This document shows, one piece after another, positions 6,023-39,677 of a stretch of 41,201 nt of DNA; position 1 is the first letter of the stretch, and every line of letters starts with the position of its first letter. The DNA comes from Desulfobacca sp. 4484_104. Lineage in GTDB: Bacteria; Desulfobacterota; Desulfobaccia; Desulfobaccales; Desulfobaccaceae. The stretch spans positions 1 through 41,201 of the forward strand of contig MUKC01000029.1 of NCBI GenBank assembly GCA_002049795.1. Direction: 5' to 3'. Made by a program: the position numbers and the translations under genes. The notes under the pieces were generated by a model. That model worked only from the letters and a program-made list of their open reading frames with translations, was not told the origin of the DNA and ran no database searches.

Positions 6023-9000
6023 TTGGTAAGTTTTTTGCCTACTCCTAATGAGCCCTCGCTCCCCGTGACATTCAAGCTACCCACTAACGGGATGGCCTCG
6101 CCGAAGAGCTCCTTCATTTTTTCCGCGCTAATCCCCCCTAAAATGCCCATCGCTGCCTGGTCGCGGGTGATGGCGCGGGCCGGACGATCAAATAGCAGAT
6201 ACGATAAGATATCGGATTGAGGCAACGGCGGCATACTTTCCAGTTGGGTACGAGGGTTAGTGACCGGCCCCGTGGCTATTATAATCAGGCTGTGATCTTC
6301 CATTTCATGACGGGCCCGAGCATTTAACAGGATCGGACCTTCAGGTGTCCCAGGAAAAGTGACAAAGGCGTGTTCGATATCGAAGACCTTGCGCTTCAAA
6401 ATAATATTGCCCTGCAAAGCCCGGATTTTGCCAGCCAGGTAGAGCGGTCGGGGGGGAATCTTAATTACCTTGATCTCGCCACTCATTTTAGCTTTTAAAT
6501 CTTTCTCCCGGACCCATACTTTCCCCGGAAGCTTTATCTCCAATTTAATCAGAAGATTTTTCCACAAGGTCCAATCGACTGCTTCTTCGGGAGCAGCAAC
6601 CTGGGGCGGCATGCATTCACTGGGCCGGATGACCCTGATCTCCGGGTGCCCTTCGGAGCGGAACAGGGTAAAGCCGACCTGGGCTTCAGGTATAGTCACC
6701 TGACCTTCAACTGCCAGTTTCGGCCAGGTACCGGTTAGATTTATCCGGCTATGCACCACGGCCCGCGAACCGGCCCGCTTTAGGGCCAAAAAGTTAGTGG
6801 CTTCCAAACGACCATTTACCGTTTGGGGTTCCCAGCCCGCCAGGGTCATGGTCCCGTTCAGGCTGGCTTGACCCTTACCGCTTGTTAAATTTAGACCAGG
6901 TAGGCTGATCTTCTCCGCTTCCAGGCGCAATTCCCCGGGTGCCAGATCATAGGGCACTCCGGCTTCCTGTAATTTAAAAAAACCGGCTCCCCACTTTACC
7001 TTCCCGGCGAGCTGAGGATTTTTTAGACTCCCGGTTATCTGAGCTTGAATATCGAGGTCACCTTGAGCGTCCTCCACTTTTGTCGTCAGACCGGCCAGGT
7101 AGGCCAGATTGAGCTTCTCACCTCTGAGCCGGACCAACAGGCCGTTTTCTGGAACCTTAGCCACGAGTGGACGCAAAGACAGTGTTAAGGGAATCTGCCC
7201 CTCCGCCAGCAATCCAGGACCCTTTGCCTTTTCCATGAGTTGACTGTCCAGCCGGAGCTGATTGCTGGCATAGGTCCAGCCCAGTTTAAAATCATGGAAC
7301 TGAAAATCAGCCATCCGACCTGGACTTACAGTCAATTTGCCGGTAATTATTGGTGATCGCAAGCTTCCGGTAGCCTCGGTCTGGAGGTCCAAGGCACCCT
7401 TAAGCGGCGGTATCGAGGGCCAAAAATTGTTAAGCACGTCTACCGGGAAATGCTCAACTCCCAGGCGAAAGGCTAAGATATGCGCCTCGGCGCGGCCGCT
7501 CAGCTTGAGATTGGCCTCACGGTAGCGGAAGGCGGCCGGGGCCAGTTCCAAGCCTGGCATAAATCGGATCTGGATGGGAGCCAGACTGCGCAACTGCTGC
7601 TGGCCAACGCCGAACCAACAGGTATTTACTAATAACAGATAGGGCTGACGCTGCACATCGATAGTGCCGCTCACCTGGCCCACCGACTGTTTGGCCTGAT
7701 CGAGCCGCAAATCAAAGGCCAACTGCTGCGGTTCGGCCTGAGCGGTTAACTGCACTTGGGAGAGGCTGAGCCAGGGAGACCTAAATTTTTCCCCGGTCAG
7801 GTCCAGTCGGCCTGAGGCTGGCGGCCATCCCCGGGAATCAGCGGACAGTTGGAGCGTAGCTACCGAAAATTGATCCCAGGAAAGCTGGCGGCCGGAGGCG
7901 GTCAGGCGTAAATGGGGAGCCGACCAGGTGCCGGTGCAACTCCCCTGAGCCTGGAGCTTGCCCCTAAGTTTAGCAGGTAGAAAGGGCCAGGGGGCCTGGG
8001 GCGACAGCCCCAAAGTGAAGTTCAGATCAGCCCTGCTTTTTTGTACTGACCCCTGAAGATCAGCCCGCAGACCGCCGAGCCGCAGTCGGACCTGGGATAG
8101 TTTGAGGACCTCCTGCTGCCACTGGCCCTGAACCCGCAACTCTTGAAAATTATAGTCTTGCAGGGTCCCCTGGGCGCTCAGGGTTCCTGTCGCTTCCAGT
8201 CGGGGCAGGTTTCCGGGCTCAGCCCAGTTAAATTGACCGGCAAAACTCCCCTCCAGCCGCCCTGGAGGCGCGGTCGGACCAGCCAGCAGGGCCGGATTGA
8301 GTTCCTTCACCTTAAGCTCGAACTCTCCCTTAATGCCGGGGTCAGGCCCTGAGCCCGGCAGCAGACGCCCTGAGCCTTGGACGCTCAGCATGCCGAAATT
8401 GCCTTGCAGCCGGGCTTTAAGTTGTTGCTTCCCATCCGCCTCTAGGTCAAAATTTATCTGAGCTGCGGCTACCTCAGCCTGATCATATCGGAAGGGTTCA
8501 ATTTTCAGGCTGCTTTGCACGCGACCCCCGGCCCAGGGCCAGCCAGTTCCAGCCAGGGCCAGAGTAGCATTGAGGGGGGTTAGCCTGGCCTCAGCCGGAA
8601 ATCGACTTCCGGCCCACGCCTGCAGGATGTCGGCGCGCAACGATTCCATCCGGACCTTCAGGCGGTAATCGAGCTTTGCAGAATTTTCGTAATTCAGGCC
8701 GCCGTGTAGATCTAGCTGACAATCTCCCAGATGCAGTTTTCCGCTCCACTCCAGATGGCGGATTGCGCCAGTAAGTTGCAGGTTTCCCGACATTTCTTGG
8801 CTTAAGGGCCATTCTGACCAAATGCCCTGCATCTGTTGGCCGCTCAGGGGCAGCGCCCGCAGATGCAGGTTGAGCTTCGCCACTTTATCTAATTGCGTCA
8901 CACTGCCAGTGACTGCCCCCACCGGCTGGTCATTCAAGATAATGGCCAGTTCGTCCAGTCGAAGCTCTTGGCGGCTAAGGGACAGCTTGGATTCCACGGC

Positions 9001-9654
9001 TAAGCGGGGGAACCCGGCGGGAGTAAACGCCAGATGACCATATTGTACCTGAACAGTTTGCTCTAAACGCCCAGGCGCCTTGATCACCACTCCATCAAGG
9101 TCCAGGTCAAGATCGCGGATCAATAATTCTTGCCCGGGCCGGGTCAGTCGGACCTCTCCTTGCGTGATGATGATGTCGGGGAAGCGTAATTCCGCAAACG
9201 GCGGCGGCGGCCTTTTTTTTAAGAGGCCGGTGACATTCCACTGTCCTGGTTGATCCTGGCGGAGACTGAGCCGCGGCGCCCTGATCTCAATAACCTTGAT
9301 CTCCGGTTCCAGTTTCAGGAAAGAGAGCAGAGATAGACTGATCTGCAACTGGTCGGCCCGCAGCACCTCCCCCTGGAAGCCGCTGACCACGACTTTCTCA
9401 AAGACCAGGGCGGTTAAGGGATTGCCATACATCTTTTCCACCGTCACCTGGCCGTTGACCCGGTCATTGACCGCCACGATGATCTTGGGGCTAAACCATT
9501 TCCAGAACAGATCAGTGGTGACCAGCAGGCTGAACAGGGCCAGAAGCAGAAGCAGGAACCCCAGAATGCCACCTAACCAGCACCACAGCCGTGATTTTTT
9601 ATTCTGTTTTCTGTTTTCTGTTTTCTGTTTTCTGTTTTTCAAAGCAATATCCAA
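6010..9654 (-). CDS. tamB: Translocation and assembly module subunit TamB (DUF490 family)
   Basis: A 1214-residue AsmA-like/TamB protein that spans the periplasm and works with the TamA barrel or moves phospholipids between membranes (family knowledge). After a basic N-terminus there is one membrane anchor at about residues 22-47, then a long beta-rich repetitive body and the C-terminal DUF490 domain, seen in ILKRKVFDIEHAFVTFPGTP, ILLNARARHEMEDHSLII and LPQSDILSYLLFDRP. The start is uncertain: the frame opens with a TTG and the first 20 residues (KNRKQKTENRKQNKK) are simply translated heptamer repeat. The 3' end is frameshifted relative to the family, with the missing tail at 5898-6022. It lies directly downstream of tamA on the same strand, the usual tamA-tamB order. 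Confidence 0.9.
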   Translation of the reverse strand: MDIALKNRKQKTENRKQNKKSRLWCWLGGILGFLLLLLALFSLLVTTDLFWKWFSPKIIVAVNDRVNGQVTVEKMYGNPLTALVFEKVVVSGFQGEVLRADQLQISLSLLSFLKLEPEIKVIEIRAPRLSLRQDQPGQWNVTGLLKKRPPPPFAELRFPDIIITQGEVRLTRPGQELLIRDLDLDLDGVVIKAPGRLEQTVQVQYGHLAFTPAGFPRLAVESKLSLSRQELRLDELAIILNDQPVGAVTGSVTQLDKVAKLNLHLRALPLSGQQMQGIWSEWPLSQEMSGNLQLTGAIRHLEWSGKLHLGDCQLDLHGGLNYENSAKLDYRLKVRMESLRADILQAWAGSRFPAEARLTPLNATLALAGTGWPWAGGRVQSSLKIEPFRYDQAEVAAAQINFDLEADGKQQLKARLQGNFGMLSVQGSGRLLPGSGPDPGIKGEFELKVKELNPALLAGPTAPPGRLEGSFAGQFNWAEPGNLPRLEATGTLSAQGTLQDYNFQELRVQGQWQQEVLKLSQVRLRLGGLRADLQGSVQKSRADLNFTLGLSPQAPWPFLPAKLRGKLQAQGSCTGTWSAPHLRLTASGRQLSWDQFSVATLQLSADSRGWPPASGRLDLTGEKFRSPWLSLSQVQLTAQAEPQQLAFDLRLDQAKQSVGQVSGTIDVQRQPYLLLVNTCWFGVGQQQLRSLAPIQIRFMPGLELAPAAFRYREANLKLSGRAEAHILAFRLGVEHFPVDVLNNFWPSIPPLKGALDLQTEATGSLRSPIITGKLTVSPGRMADFQFHDFKLGWTYASNQLRLDSQLMEKAKGPGLLAEGQIPLTLSLRPLVAKVPENGLLVRLRGEKLNLAYLAGLTTKVEDAQGDLDIQAQITGSLKNPQLAGKVKWGAGFFKLQEAGVPYDLAPGELRLEAEKISLPGLNLTSGKGQASLNGTMTLAGWEPQTVNGRLEATNFLALKRAGSRAVVHSRINLTGTWPKLAVEGQVTIPEAQVGFTLFRSEGHPEIRVIRPSECMPPQVAAPEEAVDWTLWKNLLIKLEIKLPGKVWVREKDLKAKMSGEIKVIKIPPRPLYLAGKIRALQGNIILKRKVFDIEHAFVTFPGTPEGPILLNARARHEMEDHSLIIIATGPVTNPRTQLESMPPLPQSDILSYLLFDRPARAITRDQAAMGILGGISAEKMKELFGEAIPLVGSLNVTGSEGSLGVGKKLTKVKR
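9602..9639. repeat. Tandem heptamer array (TTTTCTG)n
   Basis: About five clean head-to-tail copies of the 7-base unit TTCTGTT. It lies inside the annotated 5' end of tamB, where it codes for the KTENRKQ-like residues before the membrane anchor. Related tracts occur at 2384-2408 and 35643-35675. Confidence 0.85.
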
Positions 9655-11828: not shown

Positions 11829-14525
11829 TTATACCGAGTCAGAGGGTTCGACAATAAAAATATAGGGGAACTCCAAACCCTTAGCAGCATGCAGGGTAAG
11901 CAGCGACACCTTTTCGGCCTGAAAATCGACACCGGTGAATTCCGGGCCGACAGTTTCCTGGGCCTGCTGGCAGGGGATGCCGGCGGCCTGCAGTTGCTGT
12001 TCCAGCACAACTCCCAGGGCATGGACGCGGTAGAGGATGGCAATATCCCGAAAGCTGGCCAGGCCTTGGGTCTCTGCTTGCCGGATCTGTTCGTTTTCCA
12101 GGGCCAGGTGACTGGTACCGCCGACCAGCGAGTCAATCTGGCGGGCGATCTGGCGGGCTTCAGAGGTTTCCGAGCCCGCTTCGAGCAAAACCAGGGGTAG
12201 GTTGCCGGGACGCCTGGAGACCAGATCAGAACCCGAGGCCGTAGGGGCCATTAGCTGTTGGGCGGCAGTTAAAATGGGTAAGGGCAGGCGATAGGTCTCG
12301 GTGAGCGTCAATAATCGGGCTTGAGGCCAGTCCTGGGTAAAACGCCGGAAATATTGCGGCTGCGCCCCGCGAAAGCCATAGATGGCCTGATTGGGGTCGC
12401 CAATCACAAATAATCCCGGAGCCGGCTCAGGTGCCAGTAACCGCAGTAGGGTGTACTGAGCCTGATTGACATCCTGGTATTCATCCACCAGCAGGTGGAG
12501 ATAGCGGTTTTGGTAACGCCGTTGCAATTTTGGCTGACTTTGCAGCAGGCGCACCGGTCGGGCCACCAGATCTTCAAAATCCCAGCAACCGTTTTCCACC
12601 AGGGCCTGTTCATACGCCCGGTAGGGGGCCAGGTAACCCGCTTCCGGCTGCGGCCCGCCCAGGTCCTCGGGATAGATCAACTGCTGTTTATAATCGATAA
12701 TGGCTTGATCCAGCGCCTTTAGAGAACAATCATGCCTTTTGGCGATCTGGCCTACCAGGTGGCGACGGTCCGCTTCGGACAATACCTGACGCTCGCCATA
12801 GCCGCACTCTTGCAGAATCTGCACCCCCAGGGCATGAAAGGTCTTGATCGCCACTTGCTCCAGATGTGGATAGTTGGGCAACAGCGTGCTCAGCCGGGTG
12901 CGCATCTCCGCGGCGGCCTGGCGGGTAAAAGTCAGGCCCAGAATCTGATCGGGGCGGGCCTGACTGTTGTGGAGCAGATAAGCAATGCGATGGGTCAAGG
13001 CCCGGGTCTTGCCGGTTCCCGGTCCGGCCTGGACCAGCAGGGGGCTACCGGTATGGGTCACCGCGGCCTGTTGGCCGGAATTAAGAGAGGCCAGGATGGG
13101 GTTGGCCGCTCCGGGAGCCACACCATCGCCCGCTCCCAACGGCACTGCGACGTTTAGGGGCTGGGGACTTAAAGGCGGCGGCGCATTCAAGACCTCAGGA
13201 GGGGACGGCAACGCCGAAGCCGCAGGGTAATCAGCCGGAATCTCCCAAAACGCCGCCTGCCGGCTTAGTTCCTGACGTTCGCCGGGATTAAATAAACGGA
13301 TGGTGCCGTATTCGCCATCATACCCGGCTTCGATATGAACTTCCCGGCGCCTGATCTTGGCGATGGCCGCGGCCAGCAGCGGCCCCCCCTGGCGAGCCAA
13401 TTCCACTTCGGAAACCTCTCGCAAGACAGCCAGTTCCGGTCCCAGGCCGTCAAGCACCCGGAAGTAGGCCTCTTGCACCTTTTTACTGCCCGAATTGACC
13501 TGGTAAATTTCGGCCAGAATCTCAGGCAGCGGGATCAGCGACTCAAAGGACGGTGCGGCGGTCGGACGCTGACTGAGATCACGGTCGGCCAGTTCGAGGA
13601 CCCGATGCAGCACCCCCAGGGTTACGGGCTTTTGGCAAACCGGACATAGCCCCTGCCATTGCTGGGTCTGGGCCGGGTCCAGCCGCTGTCCGCATTTCCG
13701 ATGACCGTCCAGATGATATTTGCCCTCTTCGGGGAAAAACTCGATGGTCCCGGCAAAACCCTGCCCCGTTTTCAAAGCTTGGGCCAGAGCCGGATAAGTC
13801 GGCGGCACGGTTAGAATATTGGCTTCCCGGCCAATCTTGGCAGGCGAATGGGCGTCGGAATTAGAGACTAACAGGTAGCGGTCCAGGGCACTCCAGCGCC
13901 AGTTCATCGGCGGATCGGAGGACAACCCGGTTTCCAGCGCAAAAATCTGGTCGGTCAGGTCTTCATAGCACTCTTCCAGGCTGTCAAAACCACTTTTGGA
14001 GCCAAACACCGAAAACCAAGGGGTCCAGACATGAGCCGGGATGACCAGAGCCTGGTGGTCCACCTCCAACACCAGTTCGAGCAGATGTTTGGCATCCAGC
14101 CCCAGAATCGGACGGCCGTCTGAGGTAACGTTACCCAGTCGACCCAGACGGGCCGACAGACGCTGGGCCGCCTCCAAGGAGGGGAGCACGACCAGGGTGT
14201 GGACCTTGCGAGTGCGACCCTGTTTTTTATAAATGCTGCTGATTTCCCCAGAGATTACCAAGCGCGGGGAAGATAGCGAGACCCAGGCTGGCCCCGATAC
14301 CCGCCGGGGCAGGGCCAGTTCGGGGCGCAGTTGATAAACGCCGTCAGCAATCGGGACCAGTTTGGCAGCCATTTCCTCCAGCCAACCCGGATGGGTGCAA
14401 TCGCCGGTACCCAGCAGCGTCACCCCTTTATAAGCGGCCCACAGGTCCAGATGTTCCAAATCGGCCGTTTTGCCGGTAGCCCGGGAATAATGGGAATGAA
14501 TGTGCAGATCCGCGATGATTTCCAT
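11829..14525 (-). CDS. EndoQ-like PHP nuclease fused to a UvrD/PcrA helicase (C-terminally truncated)
   Basis: An 898-residue fusion. Residues 5-13 are the PHP motif DLHIHSHYS; further PHP blocks are TGDCTHPGW, VIPAHVWTPW and SNSDAHS, and a four-cysteine zinc site follows (CGQRL ... GLCPVCQ). This whole part resembles endonuclease Q-type proteins that cut at deaminated bases. From about residue 480 a superfamily-1 helicase begins: Walker A QAGPGTGKTRAL near 500, LTFTRQAAAEM, LLVDEYQD near 678, GDPNQAIYGFRGA, and TLHAAKGLEF near 875. It stops shortly after, at IVEPSDSV, so motif VI (the VxxTRA block with the arginine finger) is absent. A tail-like peptide in another frame follows (11720-11850). 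I start at the ATG 14525, just before the PHP motif; the frame extends 13 codons further. Confidence 0.85.
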   Translation of the reverse strand: MEIIADLHIHSHYSRATGKTADLEHLDLWAAYKGVTLLGTGDCTHPGWLEEMAAKLVPIADGVYQLRPELALPRRVSGPAWVSLSSPRLVISGEISSIYKKQGRTRKVHTLVVLPSLEAAQRLSARLGRLGNVTSDGRPILGLDAKHLLELVLEVDHQALVIPAHVWTPWFSVFGSKSGFDSLEECYEDLTDQIFALETGLSSDPPMNWRWSALDRYLLVSNSDAHSPAKIGREANILTVPPTYPALAQALKTGQGFAGTIEFFPEEGKYHLDGHRKCGQRLDPAQTQQWQGLCPVCQKPVTLGVLHRVLELADRDLSQRPTAAPSFESLIPLPEILAEIYQVNSGSKKVQEAYFRVLDGLGPELAVLREVSEVELARQGGPLLAAAIAKIRRREVHIEAGYDGEYGTIRLFNPGERQELSRQAAFWEIPADYPAASALPSPPEVLNAPPPLSPQPLNVAVPLGAGDGVAPGAANPILASLNSGQQAAVTHTGSPLLVQAGPGTGKTRALTHRIAYLLHNSQARPDQILGLTFTRQAAAEMRTRLSTLLPNYPHLEQVAIKTFHALGVQILQECGYGERQVLSEADRRHLVGQIAKRHDCSLKALDQAIIDYKQQLIYPEDLGGPQPEAGYLAPYRAYEQALVENGCWDFEDLVARPVRLLQSQPKLQRRYQNRYLHLLVDEYQDVNQAQYTLLRLLAPEPAPGLFVIGDPNQAIYGFRGAQPQYFRRFTQDWPQARLLTLTETYRLPLPILTAAQQLMAPTASGSDLVSRRPGNLPLVLLEAGSETSEARQIARQIDSLVGGTSHLALENEQIRQAETQGLASFRDIAILYRVHALGVVLEQQLQAAGIPCQQAQETVGPEFTGVDFQAEKVSLLTLHAAKGLEFPYIFIVEPSDSV

Positions 14526-14690
14526 GATCCGATACCATACCACAAGATTACTGTTACGGGGCAAATATCCCGAACCCTAGGTTTACAAACTGTTTCCCCA
14601 ACTCCGCTGGAGAACCAGGAAACGTGGGCTTCTGGGCTTCAATAAAAAGGAAAGGGTTGATAAATAAGAGCAAAGTGGCAAGGAACACCG

Positions 14691-30281: not shown

Positions 30282-31334
30282 TTATAACTCTTTAGGGTAA
30301 ATTAGGGGTGGGTCATCGGGGTTACGGGACACTACCTCGCCGATTACCAGAGCCTGCTCATTAACCGCCTGCAGGCGGTGCAAGACCTCGTTCACTAATT
30401 CTTCGGCTACCACCACTACCATACCAATGCCATTGTTGAAGGTCCGCCACATTTCGGTTTCGGGGATATTGCCGCGTTGTTGAATAAGGTCGAAAATGGC
30501 CGGTCTGGTCCAATATTGGCGATGAACTACGGCCTGGCAGGATCTCGGCAAAATTCGGGGAATATTTTCCGTCAAGCCGCCGCCGGTAATATGAGCCAGG
30601 CCGGCAATGCGAAAATCCCGAAGGAGATTCAGGATGGTTTCGACATAAATCCTTGTCGGTTTTAGGAGTTCCAGGCCCAATGGTCCTCCCAGTTCCGGGA
30701 CCTCGTCCCAGACGGTAAATTGGCCCGCTTCCAACAAGACCTTACGGACCAATGAAAAACCGTTGGCGTGCAAGCCATTGGAAGCAATGCCAATCAAGCG
30801 ATGGCCGACGGCAATCTCAGAGCCATCGAGAAGGCGGTCCCGATCTACTACTCCGACGACAAATCCGGCCAGATCATAATCCTGCTCCTGATAGATGCCG
30901 GGCATTTCCGCGGTTTCACCGCCGATCAGGGCACAACGAGCCTGCAGGCAACCATCGGTGATGCCTCTGATGATCTGGGTGGCCACCTCTGGGTGAAGCT
31001 GGCCCATAGCCAGATAATCCAAAAAAAACAGCGGCGTCGCCCCATGGACAATGATGTCATTGACACACATGGCCACCAGATCTATTCCGATGGTATCATG
31101 CTTGTTCATCAGGGTAGCAATCTTTAGTTTGGTGCCGACCCCGTCGGTGGCCGAAACCAAGATCGGATGCTGATATTTTTCCCGATTCAGATGAAAAAAG
31201 CCGCCAAACCTCCCGAGATCACCCATAACCCCGGTCCGATAGGTGGATTTGACCAGATCTTTGATGCCCTTTAGAAAGGCATCGGCCTTATCAATATCGA
31301 CCCCGGCTTTACTATAGGTCATAGCCTCAGTCAT
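30282..31334 (-). CDS. purM: Phosphoribosylformylglycinamidine cyclo-ligase
   Basis: PurM (AIR synthetase) closes the imidazole ring using ATP in purine synthesis. The 350-residue protein opens MTEAMTYSKAGVDIDKAD and shows VSATDGVGTKLKIA, DLVAMCVNDIIVHGATPLFF, the GGETAEMPG loop, IGIASNGLHANGFSLVRK and ITGGGLTENIPRILP, all typical. Length is standard. The frame is open 15 residues further, but the ATG at 31334 has GGGAG six bases upstream and begins where the family begins. DUF523 follows immediately. Confidence 0.97.
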   Translation of the reverse strand: MTEAMTYSKAGVDIDKADAFLKGIKDLVKSTYRTGVMGDLGRFGGFFHLNREKYQHPILVSATDGVGTKLKIATLMNKHDTIGIDLVAMCVNDIIVHGATPLFFLDYLAMGQLHPEVATQIIRGITDGCLQARCALIGGETAEMPGIYQEQDYDLAGFVVGVVDRDRLLDGSEIAVGHRLIGIASNGLHANGFSLVRKVLLEAGQFTVWDEVPELGGPLGLELLKPTRIYVETILNLLRDFRIAGLAHITGGGLTENIPRILPRSCQAVVHRQYWTRPAIFDLIQQRGNIPETEMWRTFNNGIGMVVVVAEELVNEVLHRLQAVNEQALVIGEVVSRNPDDPPLIYPKEL

Positions 31335-31434
31335 TGTTAACTCCCGCCTCACCCTCACGTTCCTTATTGCCCAGGCCACACCGTCCCTTTGCTCTAATTC
31401 TGATATTCCCGCGTGGTCATAAACTCAGATTTGC

Positions 31435-32177: not shown

Positions 32178-33029
32178 TTGGATCTCGTAGAGTCAATGAC
32201 GCGTTATCGGCAACAGGTTGACGAAAGTGCGGCGTTCTTGCAGCCGCGCCTGGGGGGCCGGCCCCAGGTGGGGATTATTCTGGGCACTGGTTATAGCGGC
32301 TTGGCCCAACATCTGAACGTTGCGCAGAGCCTGTCTTATGCCGAAATTCCCCACTTTCCCCGCCCTACCGGTCCTAGCCACGCCGGCTCACTCATCAGCG
32401 GCAGTTTGGGTGGCAAAGCAGTATTAGTGTTGCAGGGGCGCGTTCACGCCTATGAAGGATATGCTTTAACCCAGGTAACCTTTCCGGTGCGGGTCATGGC
32501 CGCGCTGGGCCTGAAGTTGATCATCATAACCAATGCCGCCGGCGGTCTCAACCCGCTGTTTCGGCCCGGGGATCTGATGCTGATCAGCGATCATATCAAT
32601 CTTTTAGGCGATAATCCGCTGGTCGGTTATAATGTGGATGACTGGGGGCTGCGATTTCCGGATTGCAGCGCGGTCTATGACCGGCGGTTACGGGAATTGG
32701 CGGAACAGGTTGCTCTGCAGCTCGGCTTGCGGCTGCGACAGGGAGTATATGTAGCAGTTAAAGGGCCCAGTCTGGAAACCCCGGCCGAAACCCGGTTTTT
32801 ACGACTTATCGGCGCTGACGCGGTGGGGATGTCGAGTGTTCCTGAGGCGATCGTCGCCCTGCATGCCGGGATGCGCATTTTAGGACTGTCGGTGATCGCC
32901 AATGTTAATCTACCCGACGCCATGGCCGCGATTGAGATTAGCGAAGTTATCCGAGTGGTTCAGCAGGCGGAGCCACCTTTGGTCCGCCTCCTGGTTGGCT
33001 TGCTGGAGCAAATAGCCACAGATTATTAA
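32178..33029 (+). CDS. Purine nucleoside phosphorylase, trimeric type
   Basis: A 283-residue class I nucleoside phosphorylase that splits inosine or guanosine (or methylthioadenosine) with phosphate. Seen: GIILGTGYSGLA at the phosphate loop, HAGSLISGSL, LQGRVHAYEGY, ITNAAGGLNPLFRPGDLM, the base/ribose block GPSLETPAETRFLRLIGADA and VGMSSVPEAIVALHAGMRI. The start is a TTG at 32178, supported by AGGGAGGG six bases before it. The Asn/Asp that sets base preference falls in IANVNLP; I cannot assign the substrate with confidence. It is not in an operon with the purine synthesis genes. Confidence 0.93.
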   Translation: MDLVESMTRYRQQVDESAAFLQPRLGGRPQVGIILGTGYSGLAQHLNVAQSLSYAEIPHFPRPTGPSHAGSLISGSLGGKAVLVLQGRVHAYEGYALTQVTFPVRVMAALGLKLIIITNAAGGLNPLFRPGDLMLISDHINLLGDNPLVGYNVDDWGLRFPDCSAVYDRRLRELAEQVALQLGLRLRQGVYVAVKGPSLETPAETRFLRLIGADAVGMSSVPEAIVALHAGMRILGLSVIANVNLPDAMAAIEISEVIRVVQQAEPPLVRLLVGLLEQIATDY

Positions 33030-35500: not shown

Positions 35501-35642
35501 ATATCGTCCGGCCCCAGCCCCCTTTCCGCCCCTTGGAAAATCCATTGACCCTCAGATTGATTCCTGTTAGTCTACTTATACCAAGTTCTTATTCAAATGC
35601 AACAAACTCATGGCTTAATACATTGATTAAATTAAGTATTTC

Positions 35643-35675
35643 AACAGAAAACAGAAAACTAAAAACAGAAAACGG
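35643..35675. repeat. Heptamer tract (CAGAAAA) at the broken 5' end of the pfkB-type gene
   Basis: AACAGAAAACAGAAAACT followed by AAAAACAGAAAACGG: the reverse strand of the array in tamB. The recognisable kinase sequence begins only a few codons after it. Confidence 0.7.
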
Positions 35676-36525
35676 TCTGAGCGCCTCCCATGAAGCCGGG
35701 CTCTTGGACCGATTAGCCCAGGAAGCAACTATGACCGGTCGCAGCGGCGGCGGCCAGGCCGCCAATACTGCCTTTGCCCTGGCCCGCTGGGGTCTACCCG
35801 TTGCTTTAGTGGGCCGTCTGGGGGCCGACGATGACGGTGATTTTCTCTTAAATGGTCTGGCCGGAGTAGATTGCCATCTACAACGCCAGGGGGCTAGTGG
35901 TCGGGCCTATATCCTGGTGGACCAGGAGGGGGAACGGACCATCCTGGTGGCGCCCAATACCAATGACTTGCTGGCCTGGTCCGATCTGCCGCTCTACTTA
36001 ATTCAAGAGGCCCGGTTTCTGCATCTTACTTCCTTTGTCGGCGAGCAGCCCTTGAAGGTGCAGATAGCTCTAGCCCACCAGTTAACCGATGGCCCCCATG
36101 TCAGTCTGGATCCGGGCGAGCTTTACTCCCGGCGGGGGCGGTCGTCGCTGGCCCCACTGCTGGCCAGGCTAGAGACGCTGTTGGTGACTGAAACGGAGTG
36201 GCAGTTGCTGGGCGGTGAGGCCTTTAGCTGGCCGGATTGGGCTCCCCAGACTGTAATACTAAAATTAGGGGCGCAAGGGGCGCGTCTGATCTCCCCGACG
36301 GGCATAATTGAGGCCCCGACCGAGACCGACGTAACGGTGGTAGATACTGTCGGAGCTGGGGATGTCTTTGCCGCCGGCTGGCTGGCGGCTCAATTGGCCG
36401 GGCTAGATCCCCGGGCTACCCTGAGATTGGCCAACCGAATGGCCGCGGCCAGTCTGGCCGGTTACGGACGGCAGGGTTATCCGGATCGAGCCTTTCTGTT
36501 GCAACAATTAGACGCCTTGACATAA
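35676..36525 (+). pseudogene. PfkB-family sugar/nucleoside kinase, 5' truncated
   Basis: Ribokinase/PfkB-type kinase. Seen: GRSGGGQAANTAFALARWG (the first PfkB signature region), VGRLGADDDGDFLL, EGERTILVAPNTND, a TETEWQLLGG block and the catalytic TVGAGDVFAAGWLA near the end. The normal first 35 or so residues, with the GALNxDLxY-type substrate strand, are absent; in their place the frame reads back through the CAGAAAA repeat into AT-rich intergenic sequence. No ATG lies in frame before 35731, and the only upstream start is a TTG at 35533 without a ribosome site. So the gene is either a pseudogene or has lost its start to a deletion. Next gene begins two bases after the stop. Confidence 0.75.
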
Positions 36526-36527
36526 GC

Positions 36528-37355
36528 ATGCTAACCTTTGGCTGGTTTTCCAGCGGCCGCGATCAGGCCGCTATTGATCTACTGGCCGCGATCCATGACC
36601 GGCTGGTGTCGGGATTTATTCCTGGGCAATTCGCCTTTGTCTTTTGTGACCGGGAGCCAGGTGAAGATCAGGCCGCCGATCAATTCCAGGCCGCGGTCCA
36701 GGCTCGCCAGTTACCCCTGGTGACCTATTCCTCGCGAAGCTTGCGAGAAAAAATTCGCCAGCGCGCCCCTGACCTGGAAAAGGCACGCACCGCCTTTGAT
36801 CAGGCGGTTATTGAGCAGGTGCAAGGCTATGAGGCTCAGCTAATAGTCTTGGCGGGCTATATGCTGGTGCTGAGCCCTAAATTATGTACCAAATTTTTAT
36901 GCCTGAATCTGCATCCGGCCCTGCCCGGCGGTCATATTGGGACCTGGCAGCAGGTGATCTGGCAGCTTATTGCGGATGAAGCCAGCTCTGCCGGGGCCAT
37001 GATGCATCTGGCCACCCCGGCCTTGGACCGCGGTCCCGCGGTCACCTATTGCCATTTTTCGCTTACCGGGCCGGATTTTGCCCCTTTTTGGCAACAACTC
37101 CGCAAGAAACGCCAACTTTTAGGTCTAAGAGAGATTATCCAGCAAGAGGGGGAAGCGGAACCGTTGTTTGCCCGCCTGCGAGCCGAGGAGCTCAAACGGG
37201 AATTTCCCTTGATTATTCTCACCCTGAAGCTTCTGGCCGAGGGTCGTTTGCAGTTGACCCCCGCGGGTGTCCAGGCCGCCGGCCAGTTGCTCCCCCAGGG
37301 CCAATGTCTTACCGAGCAGGTGGAGGCCTTCTTAGCCGACCGAAGCGAAAACTGA
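36528..37355 (+). CDS. PurN-like formyltransferase-family protein
   Basis: A 275-residue protein of the formyltransferase fold. The catalytic Asn-His pair is in LNLHPALPGG (about residues 125-134), and the third residue, Asp, is in ALDRGPAVTY. GYMLVLSP precedes it as in glycinamide formyltransferases. The N-terminal WFSSGRDQAAIDLL replaces the usual GSGSNxQA loop, and about 80 extra residues follow the catalytic domain, so this is probably not standard PurN but a paralogue with its own substrate. The ATG at 36528 is two bases after the pfkB-type stop; the stop TGA overlaps the next ATG (TGATG). I infer it belongs to a four-gene unit with the kinase, HAD and PmbA-like proteins. Confidence 0.8.
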   Translation: MLTFGWFSSGRDQAAIDLLAAIHDRLVSGFIPGQFAFVFCDREPGEDQAADQFQAAVQARQLPLVTYSSRSLREKIRQRAPDLEKARTAFDQAVIEQVQGYEAQLIVLAGYMLVLSPKLCTKFLCLNLHPALPGGHIGTWQQVIWQLIADEASSAGAMMHLATPALDRGPAVTYCHFSLTGPDFAPFWQQLRKKRQLLGLREIIQQEGEAEPLFARLRAEELKREFPLIILTLKLLAEGRLQLTPAGVQAAGQLLPQGQCLTEQVEAFLADRSEN

Positions 37356-38446
37356 TGCGCGCCATCCAGTTAAACACCGATTGCGAAGGCCCCCTGTGCC
37401 TGAATGACAATGCCTTTGAACTGTGCCGGGACTTTATTAAGCCAAACGGCGACCGGTTTTTTATCCAGATCAGCCGCTATGATGACTATCTGGCTGACTA
37501 CCTTCACAAGCCCGGGTATAAGGCCGGCGATACCCTGAAGCTGATTCTGCCCTTTCTCAAGGCCTATGGCCTAAATAATGAAAAGCTCTTAAATTACTCC
37601 TGGCAAAGTATGATGCTGGTGCCTGGGGCCGAAGAAGCATATCGCTTTCTCAAGGGTTTGCAGTTGCCGATCTTTGAAATCAGCACCAGCTACCATCAGT
37701 TTGCGCAGGCCGTCGGGCAGCGGCTGGGCCTGGACGAAGCAAACATCTTTGCTACCCAGTTAGATCTTGACCGTTACTCACTTTCCCCGCTGGAAGCTGA
37801 GTCTTTGATAAAGTTAACCTCGGAAATCGTCGCCTTACCGGAAATCAAGTTGCCGGAGACGACCTCGAACCCTAATAACCTGGATGGCCCCAGCCAGCAG
37901 GCCGTTGCCCGTCTTGATCAGATCTTTTGGGAGATAATCCCGTCGATGGAGATCGGCCGCTTCTATCAGGAAGTTAATCCCATCGGCGGGGTGGAAAAAG
38001 AACGGGCCTTGCGAGAAAGCCTGGCCCGGACCGGGCTGTCCCCGGCCGCGGCCATTTATGTGGGGGATAGCATTACCGATGTGCAGGCCTTCCAGGCCAT
38101 TCGAGCCCAGGACGGCCTGGCCGTGTCCTTTAATGGAAACCGTTACGCGGTGGCTCAGGCGGAGATTATCGTAATCGCCGACACGGCCTGGCCCGTAGCC
38201 CTGATCGCCGCGGTCTTCGCCAGCCACGGCAAGAGCCGGGTGCTGGCCTTGGCCCGTCAAGGGCTCCCGGCCGATCTGGCTGCCTTGGAACTGCCCCCGG
38301 AGTGGACTGCGGCCCTGGCCACCGGCCTGAAGAATCGGGATGTAACTCTCTATGTGGCCAACCCGGCGCGGCTGGAGCAGATCGCCCAACAAAGTATAGC
38401 CCTGCGGACCCGGCTGCGGGGCGCGGCGATTGCGGCCCTGAGTTAA
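37355..38446 (+). CDS. HAD-superfamily hydrolase similar to methanogen EhaR
   Basis: A 363-residue protein that I recognise as the archaeal-type HAD family annotated in methanogens as energy-converting hydrogenase A subunit R. Signature blocks are NTDCEGPLCLNDNAFELC at residues 7-24, ISRYDDYLADYL, GYKAGDTLKLILPFLKAYG and the HAD motif IV YVGDSITDVQAF near 235. HAD motif I is DxE and not DxD. It likely hydrolyses a phosphate ester; no hydrogenase gene lies near, so an Eha role is unlikely. The ATG at 37355 overlaps the previous stop (TGATG), which shows tight coupling; the open frame runs 102 codons further upstream inside the formyltransferase gene and is discounted. Confidence 0.8.
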   Translation: MRAIQLNTDCEGPLCLNDNAFELCRDFIKPNGDRFFIQISRYDDYLADYLHKPGYKAGDTLKLILPFLKAYGLNNEKLLNYSWQSMMLVPGAEEAYRFLKGLQLPIFEISTSYHQFAQAVGQRLGLDEANIFATQLDLDRYSLSPLEAESLIKLTSEIVALPEIKLPETTSNPNNLDGPSQQAVARLDQIFWEIIPSMEIGRFYQEVNPIGGVEKERALRESLARTGLSPAAAIYVGDSITDVQAFQAIRAQDGLAVSFNGNRYAVAQAEIIVIADTAWPVALIAAVFASHGKSRVLALARQGLPADLAALELPPEWTAALATGLKNRDVTLYVANPARLEQIAQQSIALRTRLRGAAIAALS

Positions 38447-38487
38447 ATATTTTTTAATCGTTTTAATTAATTGGAACGGAGAAGGGG

Positions 38488-39677
38488 ATGGACCAGTCCC
38501 GACAAAATTTAGAGTTAATTGATCAATTAGTCCTTCTGTTGCAGCAGGCTGACCTTTATGGCTGGGAATTGCGGCGGGTCCGGCAGAGCAGTGATCAGCT
38601 CTATCTGATCTTTGATGAGGTCGAATCCCTGCGCCGGGTCGAGACCGATACGGTTCAGGTCCAGATTTATTTGGCCCAGGAAAAAGACGGGCAGCCGGTT
38701 TTAGGGGAATCGGGCTGGGTAGCCTATCCCGGCGACGATCTGCAAGCCGGTCTGGTCCAGGCTCAGGCCCGGGCCCAGTGGGTCGCCAACCGGCCTTTCA
38801 CCCTGCCCGGTCCAGAACAAGTTTACCAGCCGCTGGCCACAGTAGATCATACCTGGCACCAGCAACCCCAGGAGGTGCTGTGGCGGGTGCGGGCCGATCT
38901 CAACCAGGGCCAGGCCCAGTTGAACAACATTCGCCTGGCTTCAGCGGAGGTATTTGCCGAATACCGTGAAATCAGCCTGATTAATCACCGGGGTCTTAAA
39001 GCCGAACACCAGGAGACCGAACTCTTTGTGCAATTTGCCCTCCTGGCCCAGCAAGGGGCAGAGGAAGCCGAAAGCCTGGGGTATCGTCGGGCCCGGTTCT
39101 ATCAGGATCTGGATTTAATAGAGATGGTGACCCGATATGGGGTTTACGCCCAGGATAGTCTGAGGGCCACTTTGCCCCCTAGCGGCCGATATCCGGTGGT
39201 CTTTGGGGAAGAGGCCCTGGATACCCTGTTTAACTATTTCAGCGCCCAGGCCGGAGGTACGGCCCATTTTCAGGGATGGTCCCGACTCAAAGCCGGCGAG
39301 CCGATTATCTTGGCACCGCAAGGCGACCTCTTAACCCTGAGCAGCGATCCCTGGCTGCCCGGCGGCCTGGCCAGCCGCCCGTTTGACACCCAGGGTTTGG
39401 CCCTGCAGCCGGTCACGTTTATCAAAAACAATATCTTCCAACAGGTGCTGGCCGATAAACGCTATGCCGACTATCTGAAGCTGGCTTCTCCGGCGAAATT
39501 CGTACCGGCTATCTTATCGACCACGGTCAGGTGACCCCGATCAAAGGCGGTTCGGTAAGCGGCCGCCTGGACGAGGCCTTTGCCCAGGCCACCCTGTCCC
39601 AAGAAGTGGTGCAGCGGGAAGCCTATTATGGACCGGCCGGGGTCCGGCTCGAAAATATGTCTTTGGCGGGAGCCTGA
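38488..39677 (+). pseudogene. PmbA/TldD-family protein, frameshifted near the 3' end
   Basis: The TldD/PmbA metalloprotease fold takes part in peptide maturation (microcin, antitoxin) in other bacteria. The body is seen in the first frame to about 39483: PVVFGEEALDTLFNYFSAQA and DPWLPGGLASRPFDTQG are typical C-domain blocks. That frame stops at 39534 after unrelated residues, while another frame from 39486 continues as FSGEIRTGYLIDHGQVTPIK, then GGSVSGRLDEAF and a YYGPAGVRLENMSLAGA end at 39677, the standard family C-terminus. No HExxxH is present, so it is PmbA-like, without the catalytic metal site of TldD. GGAG lies upstream of the ATG at 38488. It ends the pfkB - formyltransferase - HAD cluster. 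Confidence 0.8.

Follow-up and report, generated by a model that had tools for sequence, protein, structure and literature searches.

The closest described relatives of the gene considered here are the glycinamide ribonucleotide (GAR) transformylases of purine synthesis. In one of these, PurN, H108 and D144 have been named as catalytic (PMC3261824). PurT, the formate-dependent GAR transformylase, would be expected to give the same product as our enzyme, but the two folds are unrelated. For the neighboring genes the nearest described systems are the PfkB kinases, the PmbA/TldE proteins, and AF1437 of Archaeoglobus fulgidus, an EhaR-like phosphatase of the haloacid dehalogenase (HAD) superfamily whose family we take to be COG4030. 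The gene itself lies on a 41,201-nucleotide (nt) contig of Desulfobacca sp. 4484_104 (MUKC01000029.1; C89 in our numbering), which is here called the window and is one whole contig of a 2.65-Mb metagenome-assembled genome. It encodes a 275-residue formyltransferase, FT, flanked by a PfkB kinase, an AF1437-type HAD phosphatase, and a PmbA-like gene. In the literature we found no paper on the FT family, nothing relevant on a PurN of Desulfobacca or Dehalococcoidia, and nothing relevant on COG4030, AF1437, or EhaR. An earlier note, made from the sequence alone, had suggested that the four genes form a pathway modifying or repairing a small molecule or peptide. We consider this not to be the best reading: FT shows the genome-wide signature of a missing GAR transformylase, and it very probably represents a divergent, unrecognized class of enzymes with PurN function. 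This assignment is based on the fold of FT, the conservation of its active site, its mutual exclusion with PurN, the presence of PurM and absence of PurT in the genomes that carry it, and its replacement in situ by other PurN-type genes.

Both sequence profiles and structure place FT with the GAR transformylases. A profile built from 21 FTs retrieved these enzymes first from the PDB (8e-19) and, when compared with a profile of 12 canonical PurNs from the same phylum, matched at 99.6% probability. In a Foldseek search with the predicted FT model (predicted local distance difference test score, 94.5), the first 17 matches were all GAR transformylases (best match, 1.5e-12), above PurU, Fmt, and the sugar formyltransferases. 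Because the fold match to PurN spans ~250 columns and includes the C terminus, what the earlier note had described as an extra C-terminal domain corresponds to the C-terminal end of PurN itself, enlarged by an insertion of about 40 to 50 residues. N127, H129, and D167 of FT align with the catalytic N106, H108, and D144 of PurN and are invariant in 21/21 FTs, as is the AGY of the folate loop. FT thus has in common with PurN (TIGR00639; E. coli 1cde) the fold, the N-H-D triad, the AG(F/Y)M folate loop, and the C-terminal part, and it occupies the same genomic niche, with PurM and without PurT. It differs in its low identity (~21%), in the insertion, in its linkage to PfkB and HAD genes, and in the tree, where FT makes up a clade of its own (support, 100/99), distinct both from canonical PurN and from A and B, two other clades of PurN-like enzymes. 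We also considered whether FT could be Fmt and rejected this: the PurN model scores higher, and the same genome holds two other PurN-model matches of Fmt length (326 and 336 residues), which are its only PurN-type matches besides FT.

The distribution of FT across genomes complements that of PurN. Among 148 genomes of the Desulfobacterota phylum that are at least 90% complete, with canonical PurN counted at E values up to 1e-28, FT occurs in 36 and canonical PurN in 82, and the two are never found in the same genome (Fisher P = 2e-16). Counted by family, FT is found in 19 and PurN in 40, with a single family in common (f35), where the two occur in different genomes. The exclusion recurs in 151 Chloroflexota genomes, in which PurN was counted over the model cut-off: 20 carry FT, 102 carry PurN, and none carries both (P = 7e-12), with PurN-model matches of 290 to 340 residues in eight FT-positive genomes (about 108 to 131 bits) taken as PurU by length alone. 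Nine FT-positive Chloroflexota genomes found by another route, one of which overlaps this set, likewise have no PurN. PurT is found in 3/148 Desulfobacterota genomes and in none of the 36 with FT, 34 of which encode PurM. PurM acts downstream of formylglycinamide ribonucleotide (FGAR). Most genomes with neither FT nor PurN carry a clade A or clade B enzyme, or a match of such length, and the pattern is that of enzymes that substitute for each other at a single essential step. The distance between purM and FT is 5 kb in the window and 5.5 and 8 kb in two other Desulfobaccaceae genomes. Examples of the clade B PurN-like genes (about 265 to 280 residues) are found at L092 (5045 to 5848), L093 (3989 to 4783), and L094 (about 6100 to 6900), and on G168:C125 a match of clade B length adjoins a divergent purM.

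In three genomes the operon itself records such an exchange. Locus L023 (G024:C119) reads kinase, a decapitated FT stub of 36 residues (1501 to 1608), a clade A PurN-type gene (1732 to 2391), and HAD, while in G014 and G019 the order is kinase, HAD, and clade A gene. In the tree, clade A is separate. These gene orders indicate that a different enzyme of the PurN type has taken over from FT within the operon, and L023 is a displacement caught halfway.

Linkage in relatives separates a conserved unit from a local neighbor. We examined 50 loci, one per genome, from Desulfobacterota relatives and Chloroflexota. FT is adjoined by the kinase in 23 of them, by HAD in 25, by both in 20, and by PmbA in 7, all 7 within the window's own family; kinase, HAD, and PmbA are beside FT together in only 3/50, every one in the window's genus. 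In the neighboring genus (L045 to L048) the order is FT-PmbA with no adjoining kinase or HAD, and most Chloroflexota loci have none of the three nearby. The conserved unit is therefore kinase-FT-HAD, spread over many families, whereas the set of four is local and falls apart outside the genus; PmbA is a late local neighbor of the unit, and we rejected it as a core part. Unlinking in relatives, which the earlier note had named as grounds for giving up its proposal, is thus seen for the set of four but not for the set of three. The co-occurrence of families that the earlier note had proposed to search for does extend genome-wide for FT and HAD: HAD is found in 32/36 Desulfobacterota genomes with FT, unlinked cases included, but in only 1/112 without FT, and in 0/82 with PurN. 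The FT-positive genomes that lack HAD are G003, a member of the neighboring genus with none anywhere in its genome, G063, G097, and G164. In several Chloroflexota loci a gene for a PHP-domain hydrolase lies directly 5' of FT (L032, 7307 to 7963; L033, 7330 to 7998; L034, 3413 to 4078), and this hydrolase perhaps stands in for HAD.

For the HAD phosphatase, AF1437 (1y8a) is the closest solved structure by profile (5e-59) and by fold (2e-20), which bears out the archaeal type proposed from the sequence. The two share the full-length fold (TM-score to target, 0.88) and the conserved motifs I to IV (TDCEGP, STSY, K, and VGDSITD), but the window protein is bacterial and linked to a formyltransferase. 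The kinase has the PfkB family domain and the DTxGAGD motif. Of the named models, ribose-1-phosphate kinase (NF053626) and ribokinase come closest to it, both scoring far below cut-off; the intact kinase of a sister genome reaches 120 bits against a cut-off of 330, and the window copy lacks the N terminus. The PmbA-like gene shares with PmbA/TldE the C-terminal domain PF19289, and its intact sister matches pmbA proteins in the PDB at 4e-9, but the window gene is broken and its linkage is only local.

Taken together, these data suggest the following scheme. FT would transfer the formyl group from 10-formyltetrahydrofolate to GAR, yielding FGAR, and would thereby supply the PurN reaction in the de novo purine pathway of bacteria without canonical PurN and PurT. 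In many Desulfobacterota and some Chloroflexota it would be the ancestral or displaced PurN, and its gene commonly has that of a PfkB kinase on one side and that of an AF1437-type HAD on the other. Because these two can be lost where FT stays and kept where FT is replaced, we see their tie as one to the pathway and not to FT as an enzyme. Most likely they act in purine or ribose-phosphate metabolism, for example as a nucleoside or ribose kinase and a nucleotidase. FT itself can do without them: in the window's family the kinase has been either lost or broken, and the neighboring genus has retained FT without either of the two.

Several observations weigh against placing FT at the GAR step. TIGR00639, the PurN model, is its best NCBIfam match, but the score of 62 bits is far below the cut-off of 150.1, and for that reason we do not file FT as a canonical PurN. 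In place of the SGxGSN phosphate loop of PurN, FTs have FS(S/T)GR(D/G) (FSSGRD in the window) with R11 invariant, and this loop and the insertion could leave room for another phosphorylated amine as the substrate. The co-occurrence counts are corrected for phylogeny only via the family count, and a single genome, G023 (L044 and L089; 6% contamination), holds both FT and a clade A PurN-type gene. FT is unlinked to purine genes in most families, and none was found among the neighbors scanned in distant families. A role as GAR transformylase alone also leaves the tie between HAD and FT unexplained. If FT instead formylated a substrate other than GAR, in a modification or repair pathway such as the earlier note envisaged, its low PurN-model score, its different phosphate loop, and the presence of kinase and phosphatase genes beside it would be accommodated, and the exclusion of PurN would be a phylogenetic accident. 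We consider this quite unlikely: the exclusion holds separately in two phyla, the FT-positive genomes have PurM without PurN or PurT, and a different PurN-type gene has taken the place of FT within the operon. A further idea, that all four genes, PmbA included, serve one maturation pathway for a peptide or small molecule, draws on the compact layout of the window and on the FT-PmbA neighbors of the sister genus. It is scarcely credible given that the four occur together in so few loci of one genus, that PmbA and kinase are both damaged in the window, and that the annotated neighborhood yielded neither a recognizable precursor peptide nor a further maturation gene.

Two other explanations bear on HAD. 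Kinase, FT, and HAD could provide an alternative route of three enzymes, leading to FGAR or to a metabolite related to it, with all three acting on one intermediate, for example a differently phosphorylated or nonphosphorylated riboside; the 20 loci with the triad and the near restriction of HAD to FT-positive genomes, even where the genes are unlinked, speak for such a route. Against it, FT persists without adjoining kinase and HAD in L045 to L048, HAD is wholly absent from the four FT-positive genomes named above, the kinase is broken in 2/3 genomes of the window's genus, and kinase and HAD are kept where another PurN type has taken the place of FT. On balance we regard the route as unlikely. 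Alternatively, HAD could substitute for phosphoserine phosphatase (SerB) and be tied in this way to serine, glycine, and one-carbon supply. After AF1437, SerB is indeed the closest of the families with a known function, by profile as well as by fold, but the SerB model TIGR00338 gives HAD 29 bits against a cut-off of 144, and no pattern of replacement is seen across genomes. True SerB is rare overall (8/148 over the cut-off), so its absence does not mark HAD-positive genomes, several of which hold a SerB-like protein as well. We rejected this assignment as very unlikely. The reading of FT as a GAR transformylase thus remains the one we prefer.

The layout of the window is given in Table 1. The four packed open reading frames (ORFs) are as first described, with a 2-nt gap, a 1-nt overlap of the HAD start codon with the FT stop (TGATG), and a 41-nt gap.

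Table 1. Features of the window around the formyltransferase gene
Feature	Position	Strand	Evidence
purM (AIR synthetase)	30282-31379	-	TIGR00878, 444 bits (cut-off, 236)
Purine-nucleoside phosphorylase, between purM and FT	32178-33029	+	PRK08202, 348 bits (cut-off, 218)
PfkB-family kinase ORF, 5' truncated	35533-36525	+	PF00294, 3e-36; only profile positions 27-295 covered
AT-rich segment in place of kinase start codon and N terminus	35581-35674	+	Alignment with L041 2200-2640; TRF
FT (formyltransferase, 275 aa)	36528-37355	+	PF00551, 9e-15
HAD-superfamily phosphatase, AF1437 (archaeal, EhaR-like) family	37355-38446	+	1y8a profile, 5e-59; catalytic motifs intact
PmbA/TldE-like gene, broken	ORF 38488-39534; gene extent to 39677	+	PF19289, 2e-13

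FT and HAD are undamaged, and FT is 92% identical to its counterpart in Desulfobacca sp. STE_27. The ORFs and spacing of the earlier note are real, but comparison with the sister genome shows damage in the kinase and PmbA genes, and the boundaries given in that note, 35676 and 39677, extend beyond both lesions. The intact kinase of the sister genome (L041) begins MKAAVVCLGALNVDRLYRV. Upstream of the window kinase the sequence matches L041 up to the position of the ATG and is followed by an AT-rich stretch of ~94 nt that contains a heptamer repeat; homology to the intact kinases of L041 and L023 resumes from about 35668, at about residue 55, so that the first ~54 residues are missing. With the N-terminal substrate-binding strand lost, the PfkB domain of the window copy is incomplete, in contrast to the intact kinase of L041, and the window copy is likely a pseudogene. 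The kinase of L042, in the same genus, is frame-broken too. The PmbA gene, intact in both L041 and L042, has in the window a 130-nt deletion at ~39486 relative to L041 with a frameshift, and its last ~64 codons (39483 to 39677) fall in another frame. The ratio of nonsynonymous to synonymous substitution rates (dN/dS) against the sister is 0.12 to 0.16 for the GT2, kinase, FT, HAD, and PmbA genes, and both damaged genes were therefore under constraint until recently. The damage may reflect either recent decay or an assembly fault, which dN/dS does not tell apart.

A period-7 AT-rich tandem repeat (AACAGAA/TTTTCTG type) occurs at three sites in the window (35643 to 35673, 9602 to 9638, and 2383 to 2408), two of them at or near the 5' ends of genes; the window holds 8 near-matches where 0.06 would be expected by chance. 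Related stretches are present in L082, L083, and L086. Elsewhere in the window, a UvrD-type helicase (11829 to 14564) has ~490 N-terminal residues without any Pfam family match, and an Rfam scan of the window gave zero matches.

The archaeal affinity of HAD bears on a gap in purine synthesis outside the bacteria. Seven archaea with otherwise intact purine pathways, including Archaeoglobi, Methanopyrus kandleri, and Methanothermobacter, have neither PurN nor PurT (PMC3261824), and the closest structure to HAD comes from Archaeoglobus, one of these groups. It is conceivable, if a long shot, that kinase-FT-HAD is an ancient alternative module for forming FGAR, and that the module or FT alone formylates GAR in Archaeoglobi, Methanopyrus, and Methanothermobacter, possibly with a donor other than 10-formyltetrahydrofolate.

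If FT is indeed a GAR transformylase, about a quarter of the sampled Desulfobacterota and part of the Chloroflexota would no longer seem to lack a step of purine synthesis, and annotation and auxotrophy calls in these uncultured groups would be corrected. The result would also be a clean case of an essential step swapped among divergent clades of PurN-type enzymes, at least four in number, with one swap halfway. The more interesting question is what keeps an archaeal-type phosphatase and a kinase in the company of FT, and their tie to it offers a testable lead into archaeal purine synthesis.

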